Source: Brachyspira murdochii DSM 12563 (lineage in GTDB: Bacteria; Spirochaetota; Brachyspiria; Brachyspirales; Brachyspiraceae). Taken from it: 64,000 nt of DNA. The stretch spans positions 2,851,510 through 2,915,509 of the forward strand of contig NC_014150.1 of the NCBI RefSeq assembly GCF_000092845.1. The letters run 5' to 3'. Position 1 is the stretch's first letter; each line of letters begins with the position of its first letter. The notes beneath the pieces were generated by a model. It was not told the DNA's origin, made no database searches, and worked only from the letters and a program-made list of their open reading frames with translations. Shown here piece by piece: positions 23,753 through 44,226 of this stretch. The translations under genes and the position numbers were made by a program.

Positions 23753-26700
23753 CTAACCCTCCACAACCTTAACCTCTTCATCACTCAACCCATAGAGCGA
23801 ATAAACAATCTCGTCAATTTGCTTTTCTAAAGCGGTAGTATCTTTATCTTGCTTTTTTAGTATTATAATCTGATCAACGAGTTTTGTTATATTATTTTTA
23901 GTCTTAGAGTCGGCTTCTGGGATAGGAATATTTGCAAAAAATATTGCAGATAATTCTCTAGTACCACCCTGTAACTCTGGACAATTCCACCTTATCCAAA
24001 AATGAGATACTTTAGAATTTAAAATACCCGTTAAATATTTTAAATTATTTTTATTGTTTTTGTTATCAATTATAAAAAAACACTTTTGATTAACATAAAA
24101 ATTATTTTCATCATATATGAACGGTAAATATTTTGTCATATTAGGATATATTATTTTATTATTTTCAAAATCTTTATAATAAGATATAGTATCTTGAGTT
24201 TCAAACCACTTGTTATTAGTTTTTTTACGGCAGCCTTTTTCTCCGCTTTGTTCTAATCTTTTACCAAAACTTTCTAAATATTTTTTTATAGCTTTATATT
24301 TATCTATATTTAGTTTTAAAGCAGGAAAAGTGCATATAAGGTATAAATTATTAAAATCGTATGAATACCTTTTAATATCACGCCCCCTAAGTAAAGGTTT
24401 TATTAATTCTGCACTCTTTTTATCCTCTTTAATAAGCCTATCTTTAGTTTCCTCATCTATGATAAACGCCTCATTATAACCAGTCTTGATACCATAATTA
24501 ATTTTTATATCCCAGTCCTTCAAAGCCTTGTGCCTGCTAATCTTGTTAAAAATGCTCCTCTCCAAGCCGCTCATTATCACCCATTCTCTGCCAGCCTCAC
24601 TGACCACAGCGTCAAACTCGGCACTTGCAATCTCTTTCAAACTGCCAGAATAGGTAACCCCTTCAAAACTACGCTCGCCCCGAGTATGTTTTTCTTTAGT
24701 TTTAGAATAAAAAATTATGTTAACATCCACCGTAGCACTTTCAAACCTGCCAGCCCCCAAATCTATGATACGAAACACATCGGCATTCTTATAAAAATAT
24801 TCCCTAGTACTAGCTCCATAACCTGCACGCATCCACTTATTAGAAGTTATCAAACTAGCCACCCCGTCATCGCTGAGAAGTCCCAAGCATTTTTCATAAA
24901 ACAGCTGATATATGTCCCCAGTCGATTTAAAACTCTCATAACCAGCATTCTGATACATCTCTTTTAATCCCTTAGCCATACCCTGAAGCTGTATATAAGG
25001 CGGATTTCCTATCACAATGTCAAAATCCCTATCAATACCAAACTGCACCAAAGGCGAAAAGAACTCTGCCGATTTATTGTCAAACGGACACCAAGACAAA
25101 ATTTTCGCTTTTATACTCTCATCTATAAAAGCAGAATTTTTTACAAACTCCCGAAACTCTTCAAATTTTATTTTTACCCTCTCTTTTTCTTCCAAAGACG
25201 AAGCCACATAAAACATTTCAGATATATTTTTCATCATTGTTTTTATGCCCTCTAATACGCTGTACTCAAAAGTTCCTTTCTTTATATTAAAATCCACCCC
25301 TATTAACGCATTGGTGCAAAGAAATTGAAACTCCAAATTCGGCAAAGTTCTAATACCCAAATTATGCTCTTTTTTCTCTTTTTTCTCATCAACTACCAAA
25401 GATAAAAACGCCCTCAATTTACTAACTTCAATCGCTATAGGCTGTATATCTACCCCATGTATCATACTCTGAAGTATATCAAGTTTATACGCATAGCTGA
25501 ATTTCTTTGCATCATACAATTTTTTAAACTCAGCCTTAGCCCCAGAAGGCAGCTTATCAATAACATAATTTTTATAATATTCATGATTAGGGTCTAGCTT
25601 ATCAATCACATTAAAAACCCTCTGTAGTATCCCCAAAGGAAAGGCACCGCTTCCGCAGGCAGGGTCTAATATTATCATGTCATGTATATTCTTCAAAATA
25701 CCCTTTCGCTCTTCGTCTGTATATTTTACGCTCTCATCAACATCAAAAATCCTGTCAATCTTGTTTTTCTCCATATCGGGCATTTTCTTATACAGATAAA
25801 GTTTTATAGCCTCCATTACCATATAGTCCACAATCTCACGAGGCGTATAAAATGATCCCGTCTCCTTCCTAGCACTCTCTTTTGTCTCTGGGTTTATCTC
25901 CGCAAGCAGATTTTCAAAAATACGTCCCAGCATCTCTGGGTCTATGCTTATCTCCACATCAAAAGGGGCACTCTCATCAACCGTGAAATTGTACATCTCA
26001 AAAAATTCAAACAACCCCTTTATTATCTCATCATCTATACTCTTTACAGCCTCATCGTCCTCCTTCTTTGAAAATAATCCCCCGTTCAAAAATGGTATAG
26101 CCTTCTCATAATTATATATCACTCTCTCTTTTGAAAATTTACGCTTTTCCATATCCATATTAAGAACATTAAAAAACAAATCCTCAAGCACATCGCTGTA
26201 ATAATTTTTCTTGTATTTAAGATTTTCAAAAACCCCGCTGTTTAATATCTCATTCGGTATCAATTCCTTCTCCCGTAAAAACCAGCAGAAAAGCACACGA
26301 CCCAAAAACCTTAATGCAAACTCTTTAGCCTTGTTTTCGTCCTTATCAAAATATTTTATGATATCATTATGTATCTTCTCAAAATATTCCTTAACCCCTT
26401 TATAAAACTCCTTATTAACACCCTCCACACTGAAAGCATTTTCTATACTCTCAACACTTCCAAAAATATCGCTTGTAATCCTGCTTGCTGGCGTATGTAC
26501 CTTTATTCCCTCCCCAAGCAAAAAAGTATATCTTTTAGGATTACTGTAATCATCTTTCATTATGATAAGACCATTTTCGCCTTTTATACCCATCTTGTCA
26601 TGCTTTACATACGATACCCTATAATTATTTTTATTATCTTCATAAAGTATAAAAAATATACCCTTACCATAACTGCCAGACATTAATATCCTGCTGCAAA

Positions 26701-26983
26701 TCCTAGAAATTTTTACTCTGCTAGCAAGCCTAGTATTTTTTATATATACTTCAAACACCCCGATAACTTCATTTTCATTTATATTCAAATCCCCAATCCA
26801 AATAATTTTATTTAAAAAATCTTTATTCTTTTCTATTATTTCTTCTTCGCCAGCCACAGAGCCATATTCTTCTTTAAAATTCTCTCCAAAATGCTCAGCC
26901 CATTTTTGTTTATTGTAAGGCTCATCAAATTTAAAATTATTATTTTGAGTATTAATATTTTTCACACTATTATTTTTTTTCAT
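23753..26983 (-). CDS. Eco57I-like (type IIG-style) restriction-modification enzyme
   Basis: A 1076-residue protein. The methyltransferase core has LDPACGSGAFPLGI near 437 (motif I) and IGNPPYIQLQG near 657 (motif IV, NPPY, adenine N6). DPEMLGRIFENLL and KETGSFYTPREIVDYMV (about 350-385) are the usual lead-in of Eco57I-like enzymes. The C-terminal third is TaqI-like and ends in a target-recognition-type region. The N-terminal part (VIGVFEVYIKNTRLASR near 80-96) could carry a PD-(D/E)XK-type nuclease, as in type IIG enzymes, but no clear D-ExK is seen. AAGGAA precedes the start. Two further genes follow on the same strand. Confidence 0.8.
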   Translation of the reverse strand: MKKNNSVKNINTQNNNFKFDEPYNKQKWAEHFGENFKEEYGSVAGEEEIIEKNKDFLNKIIWIGDLNINENEVIGVFEVYIKNTRLASRVKISRICSRILMSGSYGKGIFFILYEDNKNNYRVSYVKHDKMGIKGENGLIIMKDDYSNPKRYTFLLGEGIKVHTPASRITSDIFGSVESIENAFSVEGVNKEFYKGVKEYFEKIHNDIIKYFDKDENKAKEFALRFLGRVLFCWFLREKELIPNEILNSGVFENLKYKKNYYSDVLEDLFFNVLNMDMEKRKFSKERVIYNYEKAIPFLNGGLFSKKEDDEAVKSIDDEIIKGLFEFFEMYNFTVDESAPFDVEISIDPEMLGRIFENLLAEINPETKESARKETGSFYTPREIVDYMVMEAIKLYLYKKMPDMEKNKIDRIFDVDESVKYTDEERKGILKNIHDMIILDPACGSGAFPLGILQRVFNVIDKLDPNHEYYKNYVIDKLPSGAKAEFKKLYDAKKFSYAYKLDILQSMIHGVDIQPIAIEVSKLRAFLSLVVDEKKEKKEHNLGIRTLPNLEFQFLCTNALIGVDFNIKKGTFEYSVLEGIKTMMKNISEMFYVASSLEEKERVKIKFEEFREFVKNSAFIDESIKAKILSWCPFDNKSAEFFSPLVQFGIDRDFDIVIGNPPYIQLQGMAKGLKEMYQNAGYESFKSTGDIYQLFYEKCLGLLSDDGVASLITSNKWMRAGYGASTREYFYKNADVFRIIDLGAGRFESATVDVNIIFYSKTKEKHTRGERSFEGVTYSGSLKEIASAEFDAVVSEAGREWVIMSGLERSIFNKISRHKALKDWDIKINYGIKTGYNEAFIIDEETKDRLIKEDKKSAELIKPLLRGRDIKRYSYDFNNLYLICTFPALKLNIDKYKAIKKYLESFGKRLEQSGEKGCRKKTNNKWFETQDTISYYKDFENNKIIYPNMTKYLPFIYDENNFYVNQKCFFIIDNKNNKNNLKYLTGILNSKVSHFWIRWNCPELQGGTRELSAIFFANIPIPEADSKTKNNITKLVDQIIILKKQDKDTTALEKQIDEIVYSLYGLSDEEVKVVEG

Positions 26984-27613: not shown

Positions 27614-27877
27614 ATGTCTAAAGTATTAGTTGAATTTATTAATACCTGCCCAACCTGCGACGGCTACTCATCATTTTTAAACGAATTGCAAAAACAGTAT
27701 AATGACCAAATAGAAGTAAAACTCTATTATGCAGGTAAAGATTTTGATTATTTAGAAAAATACGGAATGATAGACAGAGGTACATTAATTATAAACGGAA
27801 AAGACAGATACGATGTCTTAAGCAAAAAATTAATAGAAAAAGAAATTAAAAAGGCACTGGAAGTACAAAACGCTTAA
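27614..27877 (+). CDS. saoT: Thioredoxin-like protein SaoT (Cys form)
   Basis: An 87-residue thioredoxin-fold protein with the redox pair TCPTCDGY (Cys12 and Cys15). Small thioredoxin-like proteins of this type, some with selenocysteine at this site, head Sao operons in anaerobes; that knowledge and the naming are from memory of NCBIfam families. Here both positions are cysteine. It probably supplies or receives thiols for the organometal lyase at the operon's end. AAGGA lies before the ATG, and the permease follows 10 bases later. Confidence 0.75.
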   Translation: MSKVLVEFINTCPTCDGYSSFLNELQKQYNDQIEVKLYYAGKDFDYLEKYGMIDRGTLIINGKDRYDVLSKKLIEKEIKKALEVQNA

Positions 27878-27887
27878 TAAAACTATT

Positions 27888-28994
27888 ATGATAATGAATT
27901 TTTTGTATGTATTTTGGGACTTTCTCCTAATAAGTTCTGAATGGATTGTCATAAGTTTAATATTATCTGGTATAATACATGCTTTTGTACGTCCTCAAGT
28001 ACTGCAAAAATCAATAGGCAATAAAAAAATATCTTCTTTAATAAAGACTACAATATCAGGAGCAATTCTTCCTATATGCAGCTGCGGAGTACTTCCTTTG
28101 GCATTAAGTTTATACAGGACAGGTGCCTATTTAGGACCTACACTTTCATTTTTGGTATCAACCCCAATAATTAACCCAGCTGCAATAATAGTTGCTTTTG
28201 CTATGCTAGGTAAAGAAATTACTATTATATATATATTATGCGGAATATTTCTTCCTTTAATAATAGGAATATTAGGAAACACTTTCGGCGGCAAAGAATT
28301 AATAGCCCCTGAAGTTTTGAAATTGCAAAGTATGAATATTAAAATCCCAGAAACAAATTATGTAGATAAAACGCCTTGGTACAAAAAATTATACAATGGC
28401 ATTTTATGGGGATTTAATAATCTTGGAATAGAAATAAGCAGATTTATTTTAATAGGTACTTTATTTGGGGCATTGTTATTAACTGTAGTTCCTCAGTCAT
28501 TTGTTATGCAGTATTTAAGCAGCCCAAAATTAGTATCAATATTAGGTATAACTTTAGTAGGCTGTATGATGTATGTATGTGCTTTAGGTCATATACCATT
28601 AATAGCCGCTTTAATATCAGCAGGTGCTTCACCCGGTATAGCAATAACATTTTTGATTACAGGGGTAGCAACCAATATTTCCGAATTAATCAGCATATAT
28701 AAGCTCATAGGTAAGAGAACTTTAATCATATATTTAGTTTCTATGCTTTTTTTTGGTATCTTGATAGGTTACATTACAAATATTTTATTAACGGATAATT
28801 TTACGCCCATCTTTGATTTATCAAATTCTACTAAGCAGATAGAAATAGCCAATAATATAAATATCACTTTTCCAGATTGGTTTAAGAATATATGTGCTAT
28901 TGCAGTTTTATTTATGGGCTTATATTCATGGTTTATGATAATAGTAAAGAAAATAAAGCTGATTGTAAGCAGGGAAAAAGAAGTTCAATGCTGA
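27888..28994 (+). CDS. saoE: DUF318/ArsP-like permease SaoE
   Basis: A 368-residue membrane protein of the COG0701 permease family (relatives include ArsP, which exports organoarsenicals). The motif PICSCGVLPLALSLYRTGAY (63-82, with Cys64 and Cys66) and TPIINPAAI are diagnostic, and the second half repeats the pattern (MYVCALGHIPLIAAL). About 8-10 helices are visible. In Sao operons it is taken to be the exporter of a metal or metalloid product. It starts 10 bases after saoT, and its end overlaps saoC by 7 bases. Confidence 0.82.
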   Translation: MIMNFLYVFWDFLLISSEWIVISLILSGIIHAFVRPQVLQKSIGNKKISSLIKTTISGAILPICSCGVLPLALSLYRTGAYLGPTLSFLVSTPIINPAAIIVAFAMLGKEITIIYILCGIFLPLIIGILGNTFGGKELIAPEVLKLQSMNIKIPETNYVDKTPWYKKLYNGILWGFNNLGIEISRFILIGTLFGALLLTVVPQSFVMQYLSSPKLVSILGITLVGCMMYVCALGHIPLIAALISAGASPGIAITFLITGVATNISELISIYKLIGKRTLIIYLVSMLFFGILIGYITNILLTDNFTPIFDLSNSTKQIEIANNINITFPDWFKNICAIAVLFMGLYSWFMIIVKKIKLIVSREKEVQC

Positions 28995-29440
28995 GATTAT
29001 TTTTTGTTTTATGTGTTTTTATATTTGTTTCATGCGGTAATAATACACAGGATATAAAGAGTGCAGAAGGCATAAATAATGATGAGCTTTACAAATCCTA
29101 TATGAAAGAATACTCAGAAAAAGAACTTCTTACATTTTTGGAGGGCGATTTCAGCGGTGATGATAAAGATGATTTAATAATAATTTACAGAGAGTCAAAG
29201 TATTCAAATAAATTGATTGGTATATATAAAGACTATAACAGCGGAAAAATATTAATGACATCTCCTATACCTGCCCCTATAGAGAGTTATACTATGAAGT
29301 TTTATAATATAGACGAAAAAGTGCCAAATGAAATTTTGGTATCTGGTAAAAAGGGAGCACATATAGGTTTTGCTGTTTATAGGCTTGAAAACGGAGAGTT
29401 TATAAGTTTATTTGAAAACGGAATGGAAGATTGCTGTTAA
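28988..29440 (+). CDS. saoC: Cys-Cys-COOH lipoprotein SaoC (Cys form)
   Basis: A 150-residue lipoprotein. The start at 28988 is chosen because it gives a proper signal peptide with lipobox FVSC (Cys16) and a 7-base overlap with saoE; longer readings run back inside saoE. A DFSGDDKDDLIIIYR segment resembles calcium-binding FG-GAP/VCBS-type repeats. The protein ends in two cysteines right before TAA (MEDCC), the feature for which the SaoC family is named; relatives have selenocysteine there. The terminal pair may bind or transfer a metal outside the cell membrane. Confidence 0.78.
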   Translation: MLRLFFVLCVFIFVSCGNNTQDIKSAEGINNDELYKSYMKEYSEKELLTFLEGDFSGDDKDDLIIIYRESKYSNKLIGIYKDYNSGKILMTSPIPAPIESYTMKFYNIDEKVPNEILVSGKKGAHIGFAVYRLENGEFISLFENGMEDCC

Positions 29441-29475
29441 AAAAACATATATATAATTTTTTAAGGAGAACAATA

Positions 29476-30642
29476 ATGAAACAAACTATGATTATTTTGT
29501 CTATGTTTATTATGATGCTTTCATGCGGAAGAGGGAATAATTCTAAAGAAGCAGTTCAAATACCTGCAGATGTGCAGGCTATAATTGATGACTATAATTT
29601 GGAAGAATTAAGCGACGATGATAAAAAATATAAAATTAATTTGGGTTATTATAACTGCGACCATATGACAGCAGCTTGTGTAGGTGAGGATACTGGTATA
29701 TTTAAAGCATTAGGTTTGAATGTTACAGTAACAGGTAATGGTAATGTTCCAGAGGCTATGAGTGCAGGTCAGATGGATATGGCATATGCAGGTTTTACAA
29801 CTACTTTAAATGCTGTAAAAAATAAAGTACCTCTTTTTATAGCGGCAGAAAATCATACAGGCGGAGCTGAATATTTTGTTGTTTCTAAAGATATTAATAA
29901 ACCAGAAGACCTTTTAAATAAAAGAATATCTATGGGAGCAAATGCTGAAACAGTAAATTTAAACTGGGCTGAATGGACAGAACAATTAAATATACCAAGA
30001 GATACAACTTATTATGAAAACTTTTCTATGAGTGATTCTGATGCTTATTTTGCCTTTAAATTAGGTCAATTAGATGGTTACGGAGCATGCGATCCTTGGG
30101 GTTCTATGGCAGAATATGAGAATACTGGTAAAATATTAAAAAGACAAAATACCGATAGAGAAATAGACGGTCATGGAACTTGCTGTAAAGTTTGTATGAA
30201 TTATAACTTTGCTAAAGCTCATCCAAAATTGGCTGAACGTATACTTCTTGCTCATGCTATGTCTATAGAATATATGTATCTACACCCTTATAAAGCAGCT
30301 CAGATATTTGCTGAAAATTATAATGTTCCTTTGGAAGTTGGTCTTATGACTTTATGGAAAAAACTTAATGAGGAAGGAAGAACTATCACTTGGAAATTAA
30401 ATAGAGATTATGTTCATAACCAAATGAAAACCATGAAAAGATTAGGTGTAAGAGATGATATTAACTCCCTTGATATAGATGATTATATAGATTTATCATA
30501 CTTTGATAATTGCGGAGCCAAAGATTTTGATGTATTTCTTAAAGAAGAAGTTGACCCTATATTCCCTCTTGGTATGAGTTATGAAGAATGGAGAGCTAAA
30601 GCCGTAGAAGTAGATAACATCAAAGAAGAACCTGAAGTGTGA
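29476..30642 (+). CDS. NMT1/THI5-like substrate-binding lipoprotein of the Sao transporter
   Basis: A 388-residue lipoprotein. AAGGAG at 29463-29468 fixes the start at 29476; the lipobox is MMLSC (Cys17). The fold is the nitrate/taurine type: YYNCDHMTAACVGEDTGIFK near 57-76, then MDMAYAGFTTTLNAV. It is cysteine-rich in places where simple binding proteins are not (NCDHMTAAC, GACDPWG, HGTCCKVC), which suggests a metal or organometal ligand. It is one of two substrate-binding-like genes here; either could be the SaoB of published families, so no symbol is given. Confidence 0.75.
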   Translation: MKQTMIILSMFIMMLSCGRGNNSKEAVQIPADVQAIIDDYNLEELSDDDKKYKINLGYYNCDHMTAACVGEDTGIFKALGLNVTVTGNGNVPEAMSAGQMDMAYAGFTTTLNAVKNKVPLFIAAENHTGGAEYFVVSKDINKPEDLLNKRISMGANAETVNLNWAEWTEQLNIPRDTTYYENFSMSDSDAYFAFKLGQLDGYGACDPWGSMAEYENTGKILKRQNTDREIDGHGTCCKVCMNYNFAKAHPKLAERILLAHAMSIEYMYLHPYKAAQIFAENYNVPLEVGLMTLWKKLNEEGRTITWKLNRDYVHNQMKTMKRLGVRDDINSLDIDDYIDLSYFDNCGAKDFDVFLKEEVDPIFPLGMSYEEWRAKAVEVDNIKEEPEV

Positions 30643-30683
30643 AAATATAATAATAAATTATATATAGTAAATAAAGGAATGAG

Positions 30684-31511
30684 ATGGGGCATATAATAAA
30701 AAGAAATAAATATATTATTATATTTAGTATTGTTTTTATAATATGTTTCATCTTATTTCAAAACTATAAAATTTTATTAAACGATATAAATAAAGATAAA
30801 ATCACGGTAGCATGCGGTAATGATGCTTCTGGAATGCTCTTTGATTATATAATAAATGATAAAGATTCTAATATAGAGTTTTCAAATATTGATTATGTTC
30901 AGTTTTTGGATTGCTGCGGTTCTCAGGCCGAATTTGCTTTTATATCTGGAAGGATAGACATGGCTGTTTTATGTCCGGATGCGGCATTTCAATTAATTTA
31001 TACTGATACAAATTATTATATAGTAGGCTCTATAGTTAAAGGCTCTAATATATTGGTTTATTATAATGAAGATTATGATAATAATGTTGAACCTAAGAAT
31101 ATAGGATATATGAATAAAAGGCTTCTTCAGGAGGCTTTACTTAAATGTAGGTATTCTAATTCTAATTATTATCCTATGCTTTCAACAGCATTGCCTTATG
31201 CTTTAGAGAAAAAAACTGTTGATGCTATTTTTATTGATATTATATTGGCTTTAAAAATCAAGAATGCCAGATTTAAAAAAATTGATACTGAAGAATCCGA
31301 TTATTATTTGGTTGCTTCAAAAAAACTAAAAGACACTGTTATTCTTAATGATTTTATTAAAGTTTACAATGAAGCAGTTGATGATATAGAAAATGATACA
31401 ATATTATCTAATATACTCGTTAGTTATTTAGATATTTCAAACTCAGAAGGAGAAATGAATATATGGAAAACAATGGGCGTCAAGTTCAGCAAAATAAAAG
31501 CAGAGTTATAA
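30684..31511 (+). CDS. Second, membrane-anchored substrate-binding-like protein of the Sao operon
   Basis: A 275-residue protein with an N-terminal helix (about 10-27) that lacks a lipobox, so probably an anchored periplasmic protein. The body looks like one NMT1-type domain: KITVACGNDASGM, then VQFLDCCGSQAEFAFISGRI, a line where relatives carry redox cysteines, and DMAVLCPDAA. The Cys-Cys-Gly stretch near 78-80 recalls Sec/Cys sites of Sao binding proteins, making it a good SaoB candidate. The permease start lies 49 bases inside its end, in another frame. Confidence 0.65.
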   Translation: MGHIIKRNKYIIIFSIVFIICFILFQNYKILLNDINKDKITVACGNDASGMLFDYIINDKDSNIEFSNIDYVQFLDCCGSQAEFAFISGRIDMAVLCPDAAFQLIYTDTNYYIVGSIVKGSNILVYYNEDYDNNVEPKNIGYMNKRLLQEALLKCRYSNSNYYPMLSTALPYALEKKTVDAIFIDIILALKIKNARFKKIDTEESDYYLVASKKLKDTVILNDFIKVYNEAVDDIENDTILSNILVSYLDISNSEGEMNIWKTMGVKFSKIKAEL

Positions 31512-32290
31512 ATTTGGGAAATGCTGGAAATAGTATTTTTATGAAATTTTACAGTGTTTCTGTGCTTATAGTTATAATGGTAGTTTGGTATTTCCTTGCA
31601 AAAAAGATAGACAATAATTTACTTCTTCCAGATTTTTTATTAACCTGCAAAGAATTTTTTCTTTCTTGGGTAGACCCTTATACTGTTCAAAATTTGCTTA
31701 TAACATTAGAGCGTGTATTTAGAGGATTTATTATAGCTTGTATAATAGGATTGCCTTTAGGACTTATTATGGGATATTCAAAACCTATACTTTTGGCTGT
31801 TTCTCCGATTATAAACTCTATAAGACAAGTTCCTATAATGGCTTGGATACCATTAGCAATAGTATGGTTTGGTCTTGGCGACGGACCTACTATATTTTTA
31901 ATAACTATGAGTGCTATATTTCCTCTTATAATAAATACTATAGACGGAGTTAGAGGAATTGACCCAAATTATATTAATGCGGCTAGAAGTATGGGGGCTA
32001 GAAATATAGATATTATGTTTGATATAATTTTACCCGGTGCTTTGCCTTCATTTTTAACGGGATGCCGACTTGCTTTAGGTTTAGGCTGGATGAGTGTTAT
32101 TTGTGCAGAGTTTATTGCTACAAGTAAAGGTTTCGGCTTTATATTGGTTGAAGCTCAGCAGAGACTTGAAACACCTAAACTTTATGCTCTTATGATAGTA
32201 TCTGCTATTATAGGATTTAGTATGGATAGGGTGCTTGTTGTATTAGAAAAAATATTAACTTCTTGGAGATTTAAAAATGGCAATTCTTGA
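31463..32290 (+). CDS. saoP: ABC transporter permease SaoP
   Basis: A 275-residue permease of the SsuC/TauC type with about six helices. The EAA-type loop INAARSMGARNIDIMFDIIL then PGALPSFLTG couples to the ATPase. It forms the membrane channel for the two binding proteins encoded before it. The first ATG overlaps the upstream gene by 49 bases; an ATG at 31541 is a possible but shorter start. The ATPase gene begins 14 bases before its stop. Confidence 0.85.
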   Translation: MENNGRQVQQNKSRVINLGNAGNSIFMKFYSVSVLIVIMVVWYFLAKKIDNNLLLPDFLLTCKEFFLSWVDPYTVQNLLITLERVFRGFIIACIIGLPLGLIMGYSKPILLAVSPIINSIRQVPIMAWIPLAIVWFGLGDGPTIFLITMSAIFPLIINTIDGVRGIDPNYINAARSMGARNIDIMFDIILPGALPSFLTGCRLALGLGWMSVICAEFIATSKGFGFILVEAQQRLETPKLYALMIVSAIIGFSMDRVLVVLEKILTSWRFKNGNS

Positions 32291-33056
32291 AGTAAATAAC
32301 GTATGCAAATCTTTTAAAACTTCAAAAAAATCTCCTGAAGTTGAGGTATTAAAAGACATTAGTTTTACAGCGGAAAAGGGGGAGTTTGTAACTTTGCTTG
32401 GACCTTCAGGCTGCGGTAAAACTACACTTTTAACTATAATAGGAGGTTTTCAGAGTGCAACATCTGGAGAGGTACTGCTTGAAGGAGAGAGAATAGAAAA
32501 ACCTTCTTCAGACAGAGGGTATGTTTTTCAGAATTATGCATTATTTCCTTGGATGAATGTTGAAAAAAATATACTTTATTCTCTTAAATTTTCAAAGATG
32601 AGTAAAGAAGAAAAGAAAAAACGTTTGGAAGAGCTTCTTGAAATGTCGCATCTTAAAGGGCATGAAAAGAAGTATCCTATTTCTTTATCGGGTGGGATGC
32701 AGCAGAGGGTAGCTGTTGTAAGGGCATTAGCACCTTATCCTAAAATACTGCTTTTAGATGAACCGCTTGGAGCTATAGATTTGCAGATGAGAGAGCATAT
32801 GCAAAATGAGCTTTTACAGTTAGTTAAAGAGAGTAATAGCACTATACTTATGGTTACGCATGATGTTTCTGAGGCTGTTTATATGAGTGATAGGGTTATT
32901 GTTATGAGCTTAAATAAGGGTGAGATAGTGGCTGACATGAGAATAGATATTAAGCACCCTAGAGAAAGAGACAGTGAGGAGTATATAGAATGTGTTAGAG
33001 AACTTACTAATAATGTTAAAAAGGCTTTTATCAATAAAGTGCCTGTTTCGGTATAA
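32277..33056 (+). CDS. saoA: ABC transporter ATP-binding protein SaoA
   Basis: A 259-residue nitrate/sulfonate-type ATPase. The Walker A is LGPSGCGKTTLLT (about 41-53), the signature LSGGMQQRVAVVRAL, the Walker B ILLLDEPLGAID and the switch MVTHDVSEAVYMS. The Q-loop is FQNYALFPWMNV. It powers uptake through the permease whose gene overlaps it by 14 bases. Confidence 0.92.
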   Translation: MAILEVNNVCKSFKTSKKSPEVEVLKDISFTAEKGEFVTLLGPSGCGKTTLLTIIGGFQSATSGEVLLEGERIEKPSSDRGYVFQNYALFPWMNVEKNILYSLKFSKMSKEEKKKRLEELLEMSHLKGHEKKYPISLSGGMQQRVAVVRALAPYPKILLLDEPLGAIDLQMREHMQNELLQLVKESNSTILMVTHDVSEAVYMSDRVIVMSLNKGEIVADMRIDIKHPRERDSEEYIECVRELTNNVKKAFINKVPVSV

Positions 33057-33119
33057 GTAATTTCTTCTAAATACATAAATACATAAAAATAATATAAATA
33101 TTTTTGGAGGGGTAAATAA

Positions 33120-33452
33120 ATGAAAGTAGCTTATATTTTCAGTAGCCAAAATTCGCATATGATTTTGGACAAAATGATAATTCCGCAATTATTAAATGAT
33201 AAACATGGTGCGGAAGTTGTTGGTATGATGTTTTTTGCAGACAATACTTTTCTTCTTACAAAAGGAAGCAGTGTTGGAGATAGACTTGCAAAAGTATTAG
33301 AAAGCAAAAAAATTCTTCTTATGGCATGCAATATATGTGCTATAGAGAGAGGCATTGATGACAAACTTATAGATGGTGCTTGTATAGGTTGTTTCCCAGA
33401 CTTATATAAAGCTTTGGAAGGAAGCGGGGTTGAACAGGTTATAACTTTATAA
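33120..33452 (+). CDS. saoD: DsrE-like protein SaoD
   Basis: A 110-residue DsrE/F-fold protein (KVAYIFSSQNSHMILDKMII at the start). Four cysteines occur in its second half: MACNICAIERG (the position of the sulfur-relay Cys of DsrE relatives) and GACIGCFPDL. In Sao operons a DsrE-related protein accompanies the lyase, suggesting thiol-based carriage of the metal ion or alkyl donor. GGAGG at 33108-33112 is its ribosome site, and the lyase gene starts 9 bases after it. Confidence 0.78.
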   Translation: MKVAYIFSSQNSHMILDKMIIPQLLNDKHGAEVVGMMFFADNTFLLTKGSSVGDRLAKVLESKKILLMACNICAIERGIDDKLIDGACIGCFPDLYKALEGSGVEQVITL

Positions 33453-33461
33453 GGATTGTTT

Positions 33462-34082
33462 ATGTTTGATACTGATTTTATGGAGAGATATGGTATATCT
33501 GATAAATATCATAATTTACCTTCGGATATACAGAATGCTAGATTAAGATTGATGAATAGAGTTATAGATACAGGCTGCACTATTAACAAAGCTGAAGCTA
33601 TAGAAATATGTGGAGATGAAAGTTTGTATAAAACTCTGCTTGAAAAAGAAATTATCACTTTAAGCGGAGATGATGTTGCTTTTCTTTATCCTGTATCTGC
33701 TATGGAAACTAATCATAGGGTAAAACTTGCTGACGGAAGAGAATTCTGTTCAATGTGTGCTATAGATGCACTTGGCTCTTACAGTTTATTTCATCAGGAT
33801 ACTGAAATTAATTCTATATGCAGTCAGACTGGCGAAAAAATATATGTAAGAATTAAAGACAGATGTATTGTTGAACATTCGCCTGATGATATACATGTAA
33901 TACATGTTGATTTAAATAAAAATAAGAATTGGGCTAGCACCTGCTGAAATATCATGAATTTCTTTGGGTCAAAGAATGATATGAATGAATGGCTTAAAAA
34001 TCAAGATATAGATAATAATACTATATATCTTTTAGATTTAGAAACTGCTTTTAAAGTGGCAACTGCAATATTCAGACTATAA
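33462..34082 (+). CDS. saoL: MerB-like organometal lyase SaoL, predicted selenoprotein (TGA at 33945 read as Sec)
   Basis: A 206-residue protein when the in-frame TGA at 33945-33947 is read as selenocysteine, residue 162; a plain reading stops after 161 residues. AAGGA at 33451-33455 supports the ATG at 33462 over the TTG at 33456. Residues 96-105 (FCSMCAIDAL) hold Cys99 and Asp102, equal to MerB Cys96 and Asp99. The Sec is 60 residues after the Asp, exactly the Asp99-Cys159 spacing of MerB. After the TGA the frame reads NIMNFFGSKNDMNEWL, the MerB-type C-terminus, to TAA at 34080. MerB enzymes cleave carbon-mercury bonds; the SaoL substrate is unknown. It is the last gene of the operon. Confidence 0.88.
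33945..33982 (+). promoter_or_regulatory. Bacterial SECIS hairpin with its UGA codon
   Basis: Starting one base after the TGA, ATATCA (33949-33954) pairs with TGATAT (33977-33982), a five-base bulge follows, then TTCTTTG (33960-33966) pairs with CAAAGAA (33970-33976) around a GGT loop (33967-33969). A short apical loop with G, about 20 bases after the UGA, is the layout that SelB recognises in bacterial SECIS elements. The hairpin lies within the coding sequence, as bacterial SECIS elements must. Confidence 0.82.
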
Positions 34083-34153: not shown

Positions 34154-37100
34154 TTAATTGCTATATTTACTAAACTCTTCTTTTACTATCAAATAGGAAT
34201 CTTCGTATATGCTTTGAAGATTGTTTGAAGAATAATTGAATTTCTCATTTACCTCATCAGAAGATATAATATTCTGAAGTATTCCTACAGAACATCCGCT
34301 TTTTGATTTTAATGCTTTTTCTATTTCTTTTATAGTTTTATCAGACAAATATTTATTTTCTGTAATACTTATTAATTTTTTTACATAATCTCTCTCTTCA
34401 TCATTGTCAAGATATTGATAAAAATTATTAAGTGCACTGTGGCTGCTTGTAGACTTTTTAATATTTTTTCTTCTTTTTAATTCATCTTCAAAGTTTTTTA
34501 TATTTTCGCTTGGAGGAATATATTTTTCATTTTTATCAGCTTTTAGAGTTTTAAATATATTTTCTATATTAAAATCTATTTTTGAGTTTTTTAATAGAGA
34601 ACCGAATACTCCGTTTTTTGATTGTATTATCTCTAATAAACCGCTGAAATTTGACTCTCTTCTTATTACTATATTATTTTCTATTGATTTTATTCTTTCA
34701 AGAAGTTTATCATCATTTTTTATTTTATTATAAATATCTCTATATTCATTATCCCAGCTTACATCATCATCAGTTAGAATTTCATTTTCTCTTTTTAATG
34801 AGAATAGCGAATTAATTTCATCATCTTTTTTTAATATTTTTGTATCATTTCCGAATATAGCATTTATCAAGTTTAATTTAAAATTGGATATCTGCCAATT
34901 CTTTATATCTTTCTGAGCTTCAAGCCTAGGTATAAAGTTATGTATATATATTTTATCAAATAGTTTTTTGCCTATTCTGTTTATACGTCCCACTCTCTGT
35001 ATTACTCTTGTAGGATTGTAAGGAATATCATAATTTATTATTATACCAGCCCTATGAAGATTGATACCTTCTGACAGTGTATCAGTAGCTATTAGTAAAA
35101 AATAATCATCTTCTTGTTTATCAGTATTCAAAGAAGCATCAAAATTGGCTGCTATTATATCTCTGTTTTTTGACTGTGATGTTGATTTTATAGGTTTAAA
35201 TAGTTCTCTTAATTCATCATCTTTATACACAGATTCATATAAATAATCTGCTGTATCTTTAAACTCTGTAAATATTATAATTTTTCTTTTATCATTTTCT
35301 TTTTTGAATTTTTTTAATTCTTCTATTAGTTTAATAAATTTTTTGTCTTTATCTGATGATATATTATCCCAATCTTTTTTTATCTGTTTTAATATTTTCA
35401 AATCATTTTCAAAATCTTCAAAAAATTTATCTTCCAAAACTTCTTTAACATTTTCTATTATTTTTACATCTTTAATTTTTTTATTTGTCTTATTAAAATC
35501 TAATACTTCATCATATTCAATATCATTCTCATCATCTGCATTTTCATTATTATAAGAAAAGAAATCTTCTATATATAGAGTATCACCTTTTTTATAAATA
35601 GGGTATAAATCTTTATTAATCCAAGTTTTTATATTTTCGTATTTATCTATCATATTATCTATACTTTTTTTAAAAGCATAAAGAGAACTTTCAAATCTTC
35701 TTACAAGCAAATGTTTCATAAATTTAGTAAGGTTTCTTGAGGAAGTGGAGGCAAAATCTGCATTAATATTTTCTCCGTATACGTATTCTATTATTTTATC
35801 AGCATTTTTCTTTTCTTCTATCGTAGTATATTTAAGATAAGTTAAAGGCTCATAACGTACAGCTTTGAACTTATTATTATTTATTTCTGTACTATTGTTA
35901 TTATCATCAAATAGAGTTTTATCATTTCCTTTATTATTATATTCATCGTCATTTGGAGTAATTTTTTCAAATGTATCAGAGTATAATTTTGATATATCGC
36001 CTAAATTATAATCATGAAGTTTTGGGTCTTCTACATTATTAAACTCTGTTTTTTGCTCTTCTAAATCTTTTCTGTATTCCAAATCCTCTTTTAAATCTTT
36101 TCTTGTTCTTCTTATTATTATAGGATTAATCAAACCTAAAATTTGTTTTGATATATCTTTTATTTTTTCTTTAGTTTCTTTTTCATTATCATCTTTTTTG
36201 TATTTGCTTTTTATAATTCGCTCTTCTTTTAGAATAGATGATTTGATTTCTGCTATACTTTTATCTGTAGTGAGCATTCTGTCAAATATATCTATTAAAG
36301 AAAATATATCAGAAGTTGTATTATGCATAGGAGTTGCGGTAAGAAGCATAACTTTATTTGCTGAGCATATATTTTTTATAATATTGTAAGATTCTGTTTT
36401 GCTATTTACAAATCTATGAGCTTCATCTATTATAATAAGTCTTGTTTTTTTATGATTCTTCACATATTCGTATAATTCATCTAATTTACCAACACTTTTT
36501 ATTACAGCATTTAATTTGAACTCAGTATTATAATTTTCCCAAGAATATATTATTTTTGGAGGAGATACTATTATAATTTCTTCAGCAGCTTTCATTTCAA
36601 TCAAATTTTTAGCTATTGCCGAAGCTATTATACTTTTTCCAAGCCCTACAACATCAGATATTAAAACCCCGCCATATGTCATAATGCTTTTTATTCCGCT
36701 TTTTATAGCGTCTATCTGATATTTATAATTTGAATAATTAAAATCTTTAGGCGTGAATAATAATTTTTCATTGGTAAAAAAATTAAAATATTCGTATATA
36801 ACTTTTAAATATATTTCGTAAGGAGTAGCGTGTTTAGTAGTTTCTTCAGCTTCATTATTATTTTGTTTTATTTCTTCTTTATCTTTTATTCCCACTCTAT
36901 CAAAGAATTCTTTTTCATTTTCTTTGTCTAATATACTTGATGTGTTTTTCCATTCATCTTGAAAAAAGTTATAAAAATCTTCAAATCCGTCTTCTGTGTA
37001 TGCATTAATTTCTTTTCTTTGATGAAGACCTTCTCTTGAAAAATTGCTTGAACCTATTATTGCACAGCCGTGCATTTTCTTTATTGTACTTTTATCGTTA

Positions 37101-37507
37101 TATCTTAATACATAGAGTTTTGCATGAGTTTTATCGTTTGCACTTCTTATTTCAAGGGAGGAGTTTTGGCATTTTTCTTTAAATAGTTCCAATACTGTTT
37201 TATTGTTTGGATTTTTATTTAATTCACTAATTGTATACTCTATAAAGTCATTAAATTCTTCTTTATTTGTTTTTGTATTATTTTGATTATAATTAATATA
37301 TAAACACTGAATTTTAGGGTCAATATTCATACCCATGATAATTTTGACATTTGCTTTAAAAAATGTTTCTCTAGCTGTTTTGTCGTTTGATATATCATAA
37401 AATGCACTATAACTGCAGTAAGCAGAGAGTATTCCTATTTCTTTAATATTTTCTTCAGTTTTAAAAATTTCAAAAACTTTAGTATTAACATTATCCAATA
37501 TTTTCAT
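34154..37507 (-). CDS. PLD-domain SNF2-type helicase (defence-associated family)
   Basis: A 1117-residue protein. The first 200 residues form a phospholipase-D-like nuclease domain with DKTHAKLYVL and IIGSSNFSREGL (HxK and the SSN motif). A SNF2-type helicase follows: DVVGLGKSIIAS (Walker A), IIIDEAHRFVN (DEAH), LLTATPMHNTTSD, then, after a long charged insert, IIFTEFKDTADYLYE and RVIQRVGRINRIGK (motif VI). Related PLD-helicase proteins occur in restriction and anti-phage islands. It stands alone here, convergent with the Sao operon. No partner methylase adjoins it, so it may act by itself or be left over from a larger locus. Confidence 0.82.
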   Translation of the reverse strand: MKILDNVNTKVFEIFKTEENIKEIGILSAYCSYSAFYDISNDKTARETFFKANVKIIMGMNIDPKIQCLYINYNQNNTKTNKEEFNDFIEYTISELNKNPNNKTVLELFKEKCQNSSLEIRSANDKTHAKLYVLRYNDKSTIKKMHGCAIIGSSNFSREGLHQRKEINAYTEDGFEDFYNFFQDEWKNTSSILDKENEKEFFDRVGIKDKEEIKQNNNEAEETTKHATPYEIYLKVIYEYFNFFTNEKLLFTPKDFNYSNYKYQIDAIKSGIKSIMTYGGVLISDVVGLGKSIIASAIAKNLIEMKAAEEIIIVSPPKIIYSWENYNTEFKLNAVIKSVGKLDELYEYVKNHKKTRLIIIDEAHRFVNSKTESYNIIKNICSANKVMLLTATPMHNTTSDIFSLIDIFDRMLTTDKSIAEIKSSILKEERIIKSKYKKDDNEKETKEKIKDISKQILGLINPIIIRRTRKDLKEDLEYRKDLEEQKTEFNNVEDPKLHDYNLGDISKLYSDTFEKITPNDDEYNNKGNDKTLFDDNNNSTEINNNKFKAVRYEPLTYLKYTTIEEKKNADKIIEYVYGENINADFASTSSRNLTKFMKHLLVRRFESSLYAFKKSIDNMIDKYENIKTWINKDLYPIYKKGDTLYIEDFFSYNNENADDENDIEYDEVLDFNKTNKKIKDVKIIENVKEVLEDKFFEDFENDLKILKQIKKDWDNISSDKDKKFIKLIEELKKFKKENDKRKIIIFTEFKDTADYLYESVYKDDELRELFKPIKSTSQSKNRDIIAANFDASLNTDKQEDDYFLLIATDTLSEGINLHRAGIIINYDIPYNPTRVIQRVGRINRIGKKLFDKIYIHNFIPRLEAQKDIKNWQISNFKLNLINAIFGNDTKILKKDDEINSLFSLKRENEILTDDDVSWDNEYRDIYNKIKNDDKLLERIKSIENNIVIRRESNFSGLLEIIQSKNGVFGSLLKNSKIDFNIENIFKTLKADKNEKYIPPSENIKNFEDELKRRKNIKKSTSSHSALNNFYQYLDNDEERDYVKKLISITENKYLSDKTIKEIEKALKSKSGCSVGILQNIISSDEVNEKFNYSSNNLQSIYEDSYLIVKEEFSKYSN

Positions 37508-43881: not shown

Positions 43882-44226
43882 AAAAAGTAAGCGGAGCTAT
43901 AAGCCGTATTCTGTCATTTAAGGTAAACATTTATCTTGATATTATATCACTATAATATTCTAGCGAGCCACCTGAAACTTAGGAAAAGGGCAATCCGTTT
44001 CTGTTTGCTCTTGCCTCTCATGGGGTTTACACTGCCATTTATGTCGCCACAAATGCGGTATGCTCTTACCATGCCTTTTCACCCTTACCAAATTGGCGGT
44101 ATATTTTCTGCTGCACTTTCCATAGACTTTCGTCTTCAAGCCGTTAGCTTGCATGATGCCCTTTAGAGGTACGGACTTTCCTCAGTATTAGTTACTTAAA
44201 TACCGCGTTTACCCACTCCGCATAGC
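43882..44226 (-). ncRNA. rnpB: RNase P RNA
   Basis: Read on the minus strand it contains GAGGAAAGTCC (44173-44183), the hallmark of conserved region I, and ends near GACAGAATACGGCTTATAG, holding the ACAGAA of region V. The ends pair as GCGGAG and CTCCGC (P1). A T run follows. It is the catalytic RNA that matures tRNA 5' ends. A 64-residue minus-strand ORF inside is not coding. Ends are approximate. Confidence 0.93.

Follow-up and report, generated by a model that had tools for sequence, protein, structure and literature searches.

A MerB-like saoL gene of Brachyspira with a predicted selenocysteine at in-frame UGA codon 162, and two-TGA relatives in other Spirochaetota

The window, the whole 64,000-nt stretch of DNA that was analysed, sits in a 3.24-Mb spirochaete chromosome, that of Brachyspira murdochii DSM 12563. 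It holds a complete sao operon at 27614-34082 with the gene order saoT-E-C-X-B-P-A-D-L, in which each gene scored above its NCBIfam cut-off and the eight Sao equivalogs besides SaoL are encoded on the same strand as saoL (Table 1). The saoL frame opens with ATG at 33462, meets a TGA at codon 162 (33945), continues for 44 sense codons and closes with TAA (34080-34082), a course proposed in an earlier sequence-only reading and confirmed by reading the sequence. Its neighbours on the two sides, both on the minus strand (23753-26983 and 34154-37507), are genes for a type IIG restriction-methyltransferase and for a PLD/SNF2-type helicase similar to DrmD/HKD+Snf2 defence proteins, and a class A RNase P RNA is found at 43884-44224 on the minus strand of the window.

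Table 1. Positions of the sao genes, of the features of saoL and of the two-TGA MerB-like genes (window positions, or locus:positions for other genomes).
Feature	Position	Strand	Basis or remark
saoT, thioredoxin-like, CPTC motif, Cys form	27614..27877	+	NF040730; motif from sequence
saoE, efflux permease	27888..28994	+	NF040736
saoC, Cys-Cys at end, Cys form	28988..29440	+	NF040734
saoX, ABC substrate-binding protein, Cys form	29476..30642	+	NF040735
saoB, substrate-binding protein, DCCG motif, Cys form	30684..31511	+	NF040727
saoP, ABC permease	31463..32290	+	NF040733
saoA, ABC ATPase	32277..33056	+	NF040729
saoD, DsrE-related	33120..33452	+	NF040732
saoL, full 206-residue reading, predicted Sec at codon 162	33462..34082	+	NF040728 and Pfam MerB
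Codons 99-102, Cys99 (MerB Cys96) to Asp102 (MerB Asp99)	33756..33767	+	Alignment
TGA codon, predicted Sec162, MerB Cys159 equivalent	33945..33947	+	Conservation; alignment with MerB catalytic Cys
SaoL C-terminal part, 44 codons past TGA	33948..34079	+	dN/dS; MerB C-terminus homology
SECIS-like hairpin UUCUUUG-GGU-CAAAGAA	33960..33976	+	7-bp perfect stem
Intrinsic-terminator-like hairpin 3' of TAA	34113..34145	+	14 pairs and T run
Two-TGA MerB-like gene, genome G165	L065:1186-1932		In-frame TGA x2
Two-TGA MerB-like gene, genome G142	L069:1162-1983		In-frame TGA x2
Two-TGA MerB-like gene, genome G119	L067:1180-2052		In-frame TGA x2
Two-TGA MerB-like gene, genome G069	L068:1237-1995		In-frame TGA x2

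Standard ORF calling ended the saoL ORF at 33947, as had been expected of an automatic annotation. The protein up to that point scored 181.3 bits against the NCBIfam SaoL model NF040728 (cut-off 140), with the match covering residues 14-161. The profile itself has 159 positions, the last of which falls directly before the predicted Sec, at residue 161, and it appears to have been built from truncated proteins. Both the ORF calling and the profile fit a rival reading of the locus, in which translation simply ends at the TGA, the product has 161 residues and the following 44 codons are untranslated remains; TGA is, moreover, a normal stop in this genome, closing 8 of the 41 long ORFs in the window. 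An open run of 44 codons behind a stop has a chance of about 3% in the AT-rich sequence of the window, and it is because of the comparative evidence that the longer reading of saoL goes beyond chance. Against an ordinary stop, the operon terminator sits behind the TAA: only one terminator-like site was found, a strong one 3' of the TAA and none after the TGA, in agreement with what the sequence-only reading had stated. A catalytic residue would also be missing from the truncated SaoL, as would the end of its fold.

Conservation of the TGA and of the frame behind it was examined across the genus. A saoL gene was found in 11 of 26 Brachyspira genomes, and ten of these 11 saoL-bearing species share the codon position of the TGA as well as the site of the stop that closes the frame beyond it. 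In the remaining one, B. alvinipulli (L016/L026, one assembly), the TGA is kept but the frame is broken by a tandem duplication of 10 nt, TGCTGAAATA, that spans the Sec codon. The saoD gene of the same assembly carries a second frameshift; the two frameshifts reflect either a decaying operon or assembly errors. Elsewhere, in B. pilosicoli and relatives (L008, L009, L010 and L023), neither the interval from saoA to saoL nor the rest of the examined stretches yielded a saoD gene. Pooled pairwise dN/dS of saoL was 0.137 before the TGA (codons 1-161) and 0.117 behind it (codons 163-206), while the same downstream DNA read in the other two frames gave an inverted pattern, with pN (0.14) exceeding pS (0.06). 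On this comparative evidence, the 44-codon part behind the TGA is predicted to be translated. Purifying selection on the downstream frame in ten species, together with the match of that part to the MerB C-terminus described below, makes an ordinary stop at codon 162 very unlikely. The nearest public relatives of the window are from Brachyspira (SaoL identity of 98% to B. innocens and 97% to Brachyspira sp. G79), and no SaoL above the cut-off was found outside this genus among 393 Spirochaetota genomes.

The Pfam MerB family (PF03243) matched SaoL at residues 79-204, a range that spans the TGA, and both this match and the alignments placed the residues beyond the TGA on the MerB C-terminus, bearing out the resemblance first seen by eye. 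In the alignment, C99, D102 and codon 162 of SaoL stand opposite Cys96, Asp99 and Cys159 of MerB with the spacings of 3 and 60 that had been noted earlier. Which of the two adjacent cysteines of MerB is Cys159 was decided from the C160S MerB entry 3f2g; the roles of Cys96 and Asp99 in MerB are covered in PMC4525700. The catalytic trio of MerB is thus matched in SaoL by C99/D102/Sec162, the third member being a predicted Sec instead of Cys. All Cys-type homologues in the comparison have Cys opposite codon 162: an ordinary spirochaete MerB (L019), four MerB-like proteins from plasmids, MerB2 (5c17) and the E. coli-type MerB. They all run through and past the TGA position; none of the SaoL orthologues found has Cys at 162, so that the Cys comparison relies on MerB at 17-31% identity. 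The AlphaFold model of full-length SaoL had a mean pLDDT of 86, and its 11 best PDB matches were all MerB structures (E 6e-11 to 2e-6), the next match having an E value of 0.09. Homology of SaoL to MerB is well supported; the two share the fold (PDB 3f0o, 5c17), the residue trio and the C-terminus past the Sec codon. SaoL nevertheless differs from MerB in having a predicted Sec for Cys159, in scoring far under the curated MerB cut-offs (65.2 against 193 bits for NF009710 and 56.7 against 200 bits for NF033555), and in its genetic setting, the sao operon itself being without merR, merT and merA.

A conserved downstream segment could also belong to a split gene, in which translation terminates at the TGA and begins anew with the ATG at 33954 (codon 165), so that MerB would be assembled from two pieces. 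This ATG lies 6 nt past the TGA, a spacing that fits coupled reinitiation, and the 42 codons downstream are conserved. Against it, conservation extends to codons 163-164 (Asn-Ile). Residue 162, which is Cys or TGA in every other MerB homologue, would be lost as well. In addition, the TGA of saoL is never replaced by TAA or TAG, while the true stops of saoE and saoX alternate between TGA and TAA, yet that of saoP is always TGA. Taken with the alignment, these observations make a split gene extremely improbable.

A SECIS-like hairpin was found behind the TGA, as the sequence-only reading had proposed, but not starting one base after it: the core 7-bp stem consists of 33960-33966 paired with 33970-33976, with loop GGU and a spacing of 19 nt from the UGA, and a weaker lower helix runs from 33952. 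The bacterial SECIS model quoted in PMC13188914 calls for a stem of 4-16 bp, a loop of 3-9 nt with G first, a distance of 16-37 nt from the UGA and an MFE of -7.5 kcal/mol or lower. With a stem of 7 bp, a loop of 3 nt starting with G, a distance of 19 nt and an energy of -8.0 kcal/mol in the window, the saoL hairpin lies within this model. Taken alone, its folding is unexceptional (z -1.2; 22 of 200 shuffled sequences folded equally well), the hairpins of several congeners reach no more than -4.2 to -5.8 kcal/mol, which falls short of the model limit, and an Rfam scan of the TGA region of saoL returned chance matches only. The position of the hairpin, not its energy, is the telling feature. 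It occurs at the same place in all Brachyspira saoL genes, where the stem is invariant and hence without covariation within the genus, and stems of its size at this offset were found for 0.2% of window positions. Four remote Sec-type MerB homologues carry a perfect 7-bp stem at exactly the same offset, with sequences such as UUCUUCC-GGUC-GGAAGAA and UUCUUCU-GGUC-AGAAGAA, in which the two top pairs are altered on both sides and pairing is kept. No such hairpin was present at this offset in six Cys-type MerB genes.

The selenocysteine machinery was then considered. All four genes that the sequence-only reading had proposed to look for were found in the genome: selA and selB are adjacent (L002; selB above the cut-off), the tRNA-Sec gene selC, with anticodon TCA, adjoins them, and selD is located at 999907. 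Among the 26 Brachyspira genomes, selB was above the cut-off in all 26, and tRNA-Sec and selD were each detected in 25. Production of selenoproteins by Brachyspira was already known (PMC2897892, PMC5330540).

Translation of the saoL frame could in principle also result from a non-Sec tRNA, for example one for Trp, reading the UGA and yielding full-length SaoL with a different residue at position 162. Low-level misreading of UGA is known in bacteria. Against this stand the complete Sec machinery, the SECIS-like hairpin, an aligned residue that is a metal-binding Cys, and remote spirochaete homologues that have TGA at the same position in genomes also carrying selB; readthrough of this kind is considered exceedingly unlikely. 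A plain stop, a split gene and non-Sec readthrough were all rejected on the dN/dS, alignment and hairpin evidence.

Translation of UGA 162 as Sec is strongly supported by the conservation of the TGA, dN/dS, the alignment, the hairpin and the sel genes, which together uphold the earlier proposal that the equivalent of the active-site Cys159 is Sec. It is thus very probable, judging from comparative sequence data, that the product of saoL is a lyase of the MerB fold, 206 residues long, with Sec from UGA codon 162 in place of the second catalytic Cys. An annotation ending at the TGA leaves out the final 45 residues of SaoL, and a catalytic residue with them, and since the curated SaoL profile ends there too, the annotation error perpetuates itself.

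SaoL already has an entry among the selenoprotein families, and the Brachyspira saoL is a well-supported new member of it, not a new kind. The 2026 review PMC13188914 lists a "MerB-like organometallic lyase SaoL" (NF040728, motif CU, one Sec), citing Zhang and Gladyshev 2008 and Haft and Gwadz 2023. The protein described here resembles that family in its score, in its CU motif (TCU at residues 160-162, with codons 161-162 reading TGC TGA) and in its complete sao operon with SaoT, E, C, X, B, P, A and D. The SAO operon of the review differs in containing six selenoprotein genes, whereas here SaoL alone has the predicted Sec. No in-frame TGA was found in the other sao genes of Brachyspira in any of seven further loci, all of them having Cys forms, and SaoL is the sole predicted Sec user among the nine sao genes in the Brachyspira lineage. 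No SaoB was found on plasmids.

By analogy with MerB and from the gene content of the operon, a course of action can be proposed for SaoL. UGA 162 would be decoded as Sec by SelB, Cys99 and Sec162 would grip the metal of an organometallic compound, and Asp102 would aid protonolysis of the metal-carbon bond by protonating the leaving carbon. The freed metal might then pass to another protein, SaoT or SaoD perhaps, before its export by SaoE, with the SaoA/P/X/B ABC transporter handling the substrate. Lyase activity, substrate (not necessarily mercury) and metal hand-over are all inferred from these two sources. These gut spirochaetes would have an SAO system with one selenoprotein only, the presumed bond-cleaving enzyme, which would allow a direct test of what Sec contributes chemically in place of MerB Cys159.

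The search of 393 Spirochaetota genomes also returned four MerB-like genes, in four genomes belonging to three families, with a conserved TGA at the positions of both Cys96 and Cys159 (Table 1). The encoded proteins, with motifs such as QUAFESL and YAUSTMVFF, matched Pfam MerB with E values of 2e-13 to 2e-24, and no NCBIfam model scored above its cut-off for them. In all four genomes selB was above the cut-off, but not in G042, a genome with an ordinary Cys MerB. The only pair close enough for dN/dS, L067 and L068, gave values of 0.20 before, 0.13 between and 0.04 after the two TGAs, indicating purifying selection on all three segments. These genes share with saoL the TGA for the Cys159 equivalent and, behind it, a hairpin with equal offset; they differ in having a second TGA, at the Cys96 position, and in lying outside sao operons, and their proteins are 22-28% identical to SaoL. 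Relatives of the two-TGA protein were not found in viral contigs. Several Spirochaetota lineages outside Brachyspira probably possess a MerB-like family, not described before, with Sec instead of both metal-binding Cys, a putative Sec/Sec organometal lyase outside the SAO operon, and this two-Sec family may be new. These relatives suggest that, in spirochaetes, both positions of the MerB active site have acquired Sec. The genome with L069 also encodes a Cys/Cys paralogue of the two-TGA protein (L066:1333-2172, G142), which adjoins a flavodoxin-like gene.
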